Shown piece after piece: positions 31,829-32,422 of a DNA stretch of 64,000 nt. Source of the stretch: Acidobacteriota bacterium (GTDB taxonomy: Bacteria; Acidobacteriota; Blastocatellia; Pyrinomonadales; Pyrinomonadaceae); NCBI GenBank assembly GCA_020199835.1, contig JAIVJV010000004.1, positions 1 through 64,000 on the forward strand. Reading direction: 5' to 3'. How positions within the stretch are numbered: the first letter of the stretch is position 1; the number at the start of each line of letters is the position of its first letter. Position numbers and translations under genes: made by a program. The notes under the pieces were generated by a model, which did not search any database, was not told the origin of the DNA, and was given only the letters and a program-made list of their open reading frames with translations.

Positions 31829-32422
31829 CTACGTTAAGGCGTTGAGTGCGGCTCTAATATCCTCGTTGGTTGGTCTTTCCTGATAGTTCGATTCAACTTT
31901 CATCCACGTTATGCGGCCCGTCTTGTCAATGACATAAACCGTTGGACGAGGAATACCTTCAAAATTCTGGCCGTTATAGTCGGGATCTCGAATCCCAAAT
32001 GCATCGATTACCCGATGTCCCGGATCCGATAAAATCTGGTAATCAATCTTACCTTTGCCATCAGCGGCGATCTTTGCGGCAAATTCTCTACTTTGTGTTG
32101 GAGTGTCAACACTAATTGCTAGCAGATTAAGAGCCTCGTTTGGTTTCTTCAGGAAGCGCAGCTCAGCTAACTGCTGAGCACAGTATGGTCACCAATTGCC
32201 TCGGTAGAACGCGAGGACGGTTGGAGCGCTTCCGCGCAACGCCGACAGAATTACCTTTTCCCCGTTTTGATCTTCAAGTGTGAAATTCGGAGCCATCTCA
32301 CCGATCTTCAGTGGTTCGTTTCGAGGCTGCAGTTCAGCGTCGAGTCCTGAATTGAGTTTTGAGTTTGAGCAGGACAGTGCAATGAGAAAAAGTAACAATG
32401 CGGCAGCCAACTTTATCTTCAT
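31829..32422 (-). CDS. Redoxin/AhpC-TSA lipoprotein, candidate selenoprotein (UxxC)
   Basis: A 197-residue frame from ATG 32422 has a lipoprotein signal (MKIKLAAALLLFLIALSC). The redoxin core is PLKIGEMAPNFTLEDQNGEK, TVLAFYRGNW, then TGA (32189-32191, codon 78), PYCAQQLAELRFL, LLAISVDTPTQSREFA and PRPTVYVIDKTGRITW. Relatives have the peroxidatic cysteine exactly where the TGA stands (GNWCPYC). The frame stays open for 119 codons after it, with normal family motifs. A perfect 7-bp hairpin with an AGTTA loop begins nine bases after the TGA. Selenocysteine at the active site (UxxC) is therefore likely, giving a periplasmic peroxide or thiol reductase. The alternative is a nonsense mutation. Confidence 0.75.
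32161..32179 (-). promoter_or_regulatory. SECIS-like hairpin downstream of the redoxin TGA
   Basis: On the reverse strand GCTCAGC (32179-32173) pairs perfectly with GCTGAGC (32167-32161) around the loop AGTTA. The loop begins 16 nucleotides after the TGA and has G in its second position followed by U. This meets the usual bacterial SECIS pattern: apical loop 16-37 nt after UGA with a G among the first two loop bases. Confidence 0.55.

Follow-up and report, generated by a model that had tools for sequence, protein, structure and literature searches.

A very probable selenoprotein of the redoxin family, with selenocysteine first in a UxxC motif and a covarying SECIS-like hairpin, in an uncultured acidobacterium

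We analysed a stretch of 64,000 nucleotides (hereafter, the window) from an uncultured soil-type acidobacterium. It holds a redoxin gene interrupted by one in-frame TGA, with the following features.

31829..32422, minus strand: redoxin gene (AhpC/TSA family), from the ATG at 32422 to the TAG at 31829, 197 codons with one in-frame TGA
32354..32422, minus strand: N-terminal hydrophobic segment with a lipoprotein-like Cys18, a putative export signal judged from the sequence
32189..32191, minus strand: putative selenocysteine (Sec) codon TGA (residue 78), which opens the UxxC motif; the same codon is TGA in homologues
32180..32182, minus strand: Cys81 codon, second residue of UxxC, invariant in 37 aligned homologues
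32161..32179, minus strand: SECIS-like hairpin with a 7-bp stem (GCTCAGC/GCTGAGC) and the loop AGTTA; read, folded and covarying

With the TGA read as Sec, the frame gives ...LAFYRGNW-U78-PYC81AQQLAEL... and contains no other stop. In a Pfam search with the read-through protein, PF00578 (AhpC-TSA) spans the TGA over residues 40-173 (E 3e-30), and PF08534 (Redoxin) matches more weakly (E 4.3e-20). The original prediction of a frame resembling AhpC/TSA redoxins on either side of a single TGA is thus borne out, as is its position for the gene, although the minus strand had been only implicit there. A coding-potential scan for in-frame TGAs in the window placed the redoxin TGA at rank 1; the six other hits, which encode nothing recognisable as a protein, resemble shadow frames.

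We searched for homologues in 59 genomes, comprising the redoxin's own genome and relatives from the same genus, family and class. Nearly all close homologues have TGA at the Sec codon, and two further redoxin paralogues with TGA were identified in the own genome, giving three Sec paralogues in all. Overall, 95 distinct homologous stretches, drawn from several phyla, have TGA at this codon, and homologues with as little as 30-40% identity share it. When named GTDB genomes were searched with a pattern, TGA stood at this codon in 73 stretches, distributed over Pyrinomonadaceae and other Acidobacteriota, Chloroflexi/Dehalococcoidia, Desulfobacterota, Verrucomicrobiota, Gemmatimonadota and Myxococcota, a count that reflects spread and not frequency because the search pattern itself required TGA. 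Homologues in which Cys takes the place of Sec, as looked for in a selenoprotein family, do exist, and form a minority of those read (L031, L033, L034, L040). The original prediction had proposed checking whether homologues carry Cys or TGA here, and most retain TGA; its statement that relatives read GNWCPYC has to be corrected, as TGA predominates in the close relatives and Cys is the minority state. Comparison of the redoxin with seven homologues gave pN of 0.15-0.29 against pS of 0.77-0.87 on the 3' side of the TGA, with stronger constraint after the TGA than before it, indicating that the region beyond this codon is selected as protein.

The TGA (32191-32189) is followed by nine bases (32188-32180) and then by the two hairpin arms, GCTCAGC (32179-32173) and GCTGAGC (32167-32161), which enclose the loop AGTTA (32172-32168). 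The loop starts 16 nt 3' of the TGA and its second base is G. The geometry is therefore as first described, with a perfect 7-bp stem, an AGTTA loop, a 9-base gap, a loop at 16 nt and G in second place. Bacterial SECIS (bSECIS) elements have an apical loop approximately 16-37 nt after the UGA and a G within the first two loop positions, and the redoxin hairpin agrees with both the loop distance and the loop G. Folded as a single sequence, it has a z of -1.1 against dinucleotide shuffles, which is not significant; in 5% of synonymous recodings the stem is of equal or greater length, and 2.7% fold equally well or better. The hairpin on its own is only moderately unusual and not decisive, and the case consequently rests on conservation and covariation. 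A search with the Rfam model SECIS_1 (RF00031) gave no match anywhere, controls included, and is thus uninformative.

When 18 sequences are aligned, 87% of the alignment cells pair with the hairpin in register, compared to 10-42% when it is slid. Among 58 distinct homologues that share the same peptide pattern, the codon in the 5' arm tracks the Ala codon in the 3' arm: CAG accompanies GCT in 12/12 cases, CGG accompanies GCC in 32/33, and CGC accompanies GCG in 11/12 (Fisher 4.5e-10 for CAG/CGG against GCT/GCC, a value that ignores relatedness among the homologues). The CAG/GCT form occurs in Acidobacteriota, including the redoxin studied here, in Desulfobacterota and in Verrucomicrobiota. As the change in the Ala codon is synonymous, the covariation of the stem is not explained by selection on the protein. 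The loop Leu is encoded by TTR (TTA/TTG) in 54/54 homologues and never by CTN, the form taken by 77% of Leu codons in a sample of the redoxin's own genome; the loop thus retains GUU. Subfamilies at a greater distance form a hairpin of their own with the loop AGTTG or AGTTA (for example, CTCCG-AGTTG-CGGAG). Cys homologues, in contrast, retain a stem of 0-2 bp in the same register; in one of them (L031) a 6-bp stem is possible, but around a different loop. Conservation of the hairpin had been named as a check on the original prediction, and we find that it covaries across the Sec homologues and is broken in the Cys homologues.

A search for the sel genes, likewise proposed at the outset, was largely but not wholly successful. 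The assembly (18 contigs, 83% complete) contains selA, a Sec-type selD and four tRNA-Sec genes (selC) with anticodon TCA. The selD gene has its own in-frame TGA (SCSG-U-AAKLSPS; L015:1402-2526, minus), which makes SelD a selenoprotein too, as is known elsewhere. For selB, we obtained no match over the cut-off in this 83%-complete assembly. The open frames of the two best sub-threshold SelB matches are LepA and TypA, and the remaining ones are weaker and look like other translation GTPases. selB is present in 51/59 genomes searched; it adjoins bshA in two relatives from the same genus (with the identity of bshA confirmed for one), and bshA was likewise not found here. The missing selB is thus most simply explained by a gap in the assembly, albeit unproven.

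These data bear on two ways in which the TGA might not encode Sec. An ordinary Cys redoxin could have recently acquired a nonsense mutation and become a pseudogene with a chance hairpin, and the failure to find selB and the modest z of the hairpin speak for this; however, a TGA common to homologues at 30-40% identity in several phyla, purifying selection 3' of the TGA and a covarying stem all contradict it, and we consider it very improbable, in agreement with the original prediction, which had thought a chance nonsense mutation unlikely. The TGA could alternatively be read as another amino acid, either genome-wide or by an ordinary suppressor tRNA. Nothing directly favours this reading, and we give it hardly any credence: TGA terminates 21/55 long open frames in the loci of this genome (shadow frames included), genes of the genome end in TGA, the Sec pathway is present, and the SECIS-like hairpin covaries.

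The redoxin is, from the sequence evidence, almost certainly a selenoprotein and not the product of a nonsense mutation. The central claim of the original prediction, a selenoprotein with a bacterial SECIS, is upheld by the Sec genes (selA, selD and tRNA-Sec), the conserved TGA and the covarying hairpin. The frame, the TGA conservation, the covariation, the Sec genes other than selB and the predicted fold come from sequence; Sec insertion itself is inferred. SerRS and SelA would make the Sec-tRNA, with selenophosphate supplied by SelD; the hairpin nine bases past the UGA would bind SelB carrying Sec-tRNA-Sec, allowing the ribosome to decode the UGA as Sec. In the finished enzyme, the selenolate of U78 would attack a disulfide or peroxide substrate, and C81 would resolve the product as an Se-S bond that a thiol donor would then reduce. 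We hold with high confidence that the gene would specify, via this proposed insertion mechanism, an exported redoxin that belongs to the Prx-like thiol:disulfide oxidoreductases and has Sec first in its UxxC motif.

The placement of the Sec within the active site differs from that first proposed. When the redoxin is aligned with the solved peroxiredoxins 2ywn and 2cx3, U78 matches the Thr/Ser of their TxxC and C81 matches the peroxidatic Cys; in an alignment with ResA, U78 matches the first Cys of CxxC. The TGA had been described as lying exactly at the peroxidatic cysteine, which is wrong in the canonical sense; the accompanying description of a UxxC with Cys kept three residues after the TGA is accurate (U78-P-Y-C81, with C81 invariant in the 37 homologues). 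With U78 on the Thr/Ser and C81 on the peroxidatic Cys, the motif is best regarded as a Trx/ResA-like UxxC. An AlphaFold2 model of the redoxin (pLDDT 93.2) has a peroxiredoxin fold. The nearest solved folds are Mycobacterium tuberculosis AhpE (TM-score 0.90 normalised by target, 28% identity), followed by PrxQ/BCP types, with ResA lower. In the model, a helix over residues 3-22 corresponds to the hydrophobic N-terminus, which includes the lipoprotein-like LSC18, and homologues carry similar N-terminal hydrophobic segments; judging from these three observations, the redoxin is probably exported, either periplasmic or lipid-anchored.

We favour a UxxC thiol:disulfide oxidoreductase built on a peroxiredoxin fold, whose proposed substrate and electron donor are conjectural. 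Peroxidase activity is possible, and the protein might instead be a selenoprotein that acts as a true peroxidase, a selenoperoxiredoxin. The ranking of peroxiredoxins, AhpE first, among the nearest folds and the alignment of C81 with the peroxidatic Cys speak for a true peroxidase. We nonetheless think it unlikely, although much less so than either explanation without Sec, as the Pro and Thr of PxxxTxxC are both replaced (by R74 and U78), the redoxin scores far below the cut-offs of the PrxU and AhpC models, and its UxxC resembles that of Trx/ResA.

We additionally noticed other genes with in-frame TGAs. A rhodanese-domain protein (VVYCSSPT-U-HASENAA; L066:13226-13615, minus) is a probable further selenoprotein, as is an AhpD/CMD-like protein with CxxU (NKCHY-U-INHHGEAL; L068:6527-7075, minus), whose gene adjoins a Sec redoxin paralogue (L068:5931-6524, plus). 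Another Sec redoxin paralogue adjoins a radical SAM/DUF3641 (ArsS-like) gene and an AhpD-like gene (L066:8206-9857), which suggests an arsenosugar-type cluster. In two genomes from another family of the same class, a tRNA-Sec lies directly beside the redoxin gene, at a distance of 14 bases from a Sec form in one (L074:2795-3507) and of 95 bases from a Cys form in the other (L075:2064-2818).

The four tRNA-Sec genes of the redoxin's genome (C15:157847, C6:100783, C6:98652 and C11:35942; loci L006, L007, L008 and L009 of genome G000) are non-identical; all have G73 and CCA and, as read from the alignment, the changes in their variable arms match. Most relatives have one tRNA-Sec gene. Table 3 of a 2017 survey gives at most two tRNA-Sec per bacterium with compensatory changes (PMC5330540), and four non-identical copies in one bacterium are, by this measure, unusual. 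A pair of duplicated genes encodes a protein with the motif WV(I/V)UPVIPDPRDGGIAQD (L067:4981-6036, minus, and L066:4505-5566, minus; also L164, L165 and L166), and each is preceded, at a few hundred bases and in the same orientation, by one of the tRNA-Sec copies; a third copy is 2 kb away from one of them. The motif genes adjoin a multihaem cytochrome c/TPR gene, and the same arrangement of tRNA-Sec and motif gene occurs in one relative (G016). This WVxUPVIPDPRxGGI family has TGA in four genomes (the own genome and three others) with a strong hairpin after it, and in two further genomes the homologues carry Cys and lack this hairpin. The protein has no Pfam match, an NCBIfam scan covering most of it was empty, and the family does not appear under another name in Table 1 of a 2026 review (PMC13188914). 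It may represent a new selenoprotein family, for which it is a candidate. In-frame TAA or TAG reported for some of its homologues prompted the idea of Sec at other stop codons; we rejected this because in those homologues the residue aligned with Sec is Cys, or Ala in the most divergent one. It is conceivable, though on balance somewhat doubtful, that the Sec system has expanded in this lineage, with additional tRNA-Sec genes moving together with selenoprotein genes, and that the redoxin, with its three Sec paralogues, would belong to an enlarged exported selenium redox network together with the WVxUPVIPDPRxGGI family, some of whose loci have a tRNA-Sec of their own.

Recognition of the Sec codon corrects an annotation that would otherwise be read as a short fragment or pseudogene, and extends the clear use of what are probably exported UxxC selenoproteins to an uncultured lineage of acidobacteria. 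The homologues also allow covariation in a bacterial SECIS to be tested cleanly codon by codon: where one arm changes an amino acid, the other changes synonymously. Following up the redoxin furthermore revealed four distinct tRNA-Sec genes in one genome, and a candidate for a new selenoprotein family.

Finally, we compared the redoxin with known selenoproteins and related enzymes. The canonical selenoperoxiredoxin PrxU (TxxU) shares the peroxiredoxin fold and a single active-site Sec; in PrxU, however, the Sec is at the peroxidatic position of PxxxTxxC, and in the alignment the redoxin has it three residues earlier, in place of the Thr, with the Cys kept. The peroxiredoxin-like group cd02970 (UxxS) shares the AhpC/TSA domain and a Sec in first place in the motif, but its second residue is Ser where the redoxin has Cys. 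M. tuberculosis AhpE, a 1-Cys peroxiredoxin, has the same fold, although without a CxxC or UxxC. Closer counterparts are found among the predicted selenoproteins in Table 1 of the 2026 review (PMC13188914), which lists "Redoxin family protein, PF08534, UxxC", credited to PMC2398784 and PMC5029168, and "Prx-like thiol:disulfide oxidoreductase, PF00578, UxxC/UxxU". The former (representative HEU0032618.1) shares the redoxin/AhpC-TSA domain and one Sec in UxxC, and shows no difference when compared by its table description only, other than that the redoxin scores higher as PF00578. The latter (representative WP_010940744.1), likewise compared by description only, shares both the best Pfam family, PF00578, and the UxxC. 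Enzymes of the redoxin's kind are therefore already known as selenoproteins, and the redoxin, with its PF08534/PF00578 domain and a predicted Sec in UxxC, fits the listed UxxC families and would join them.
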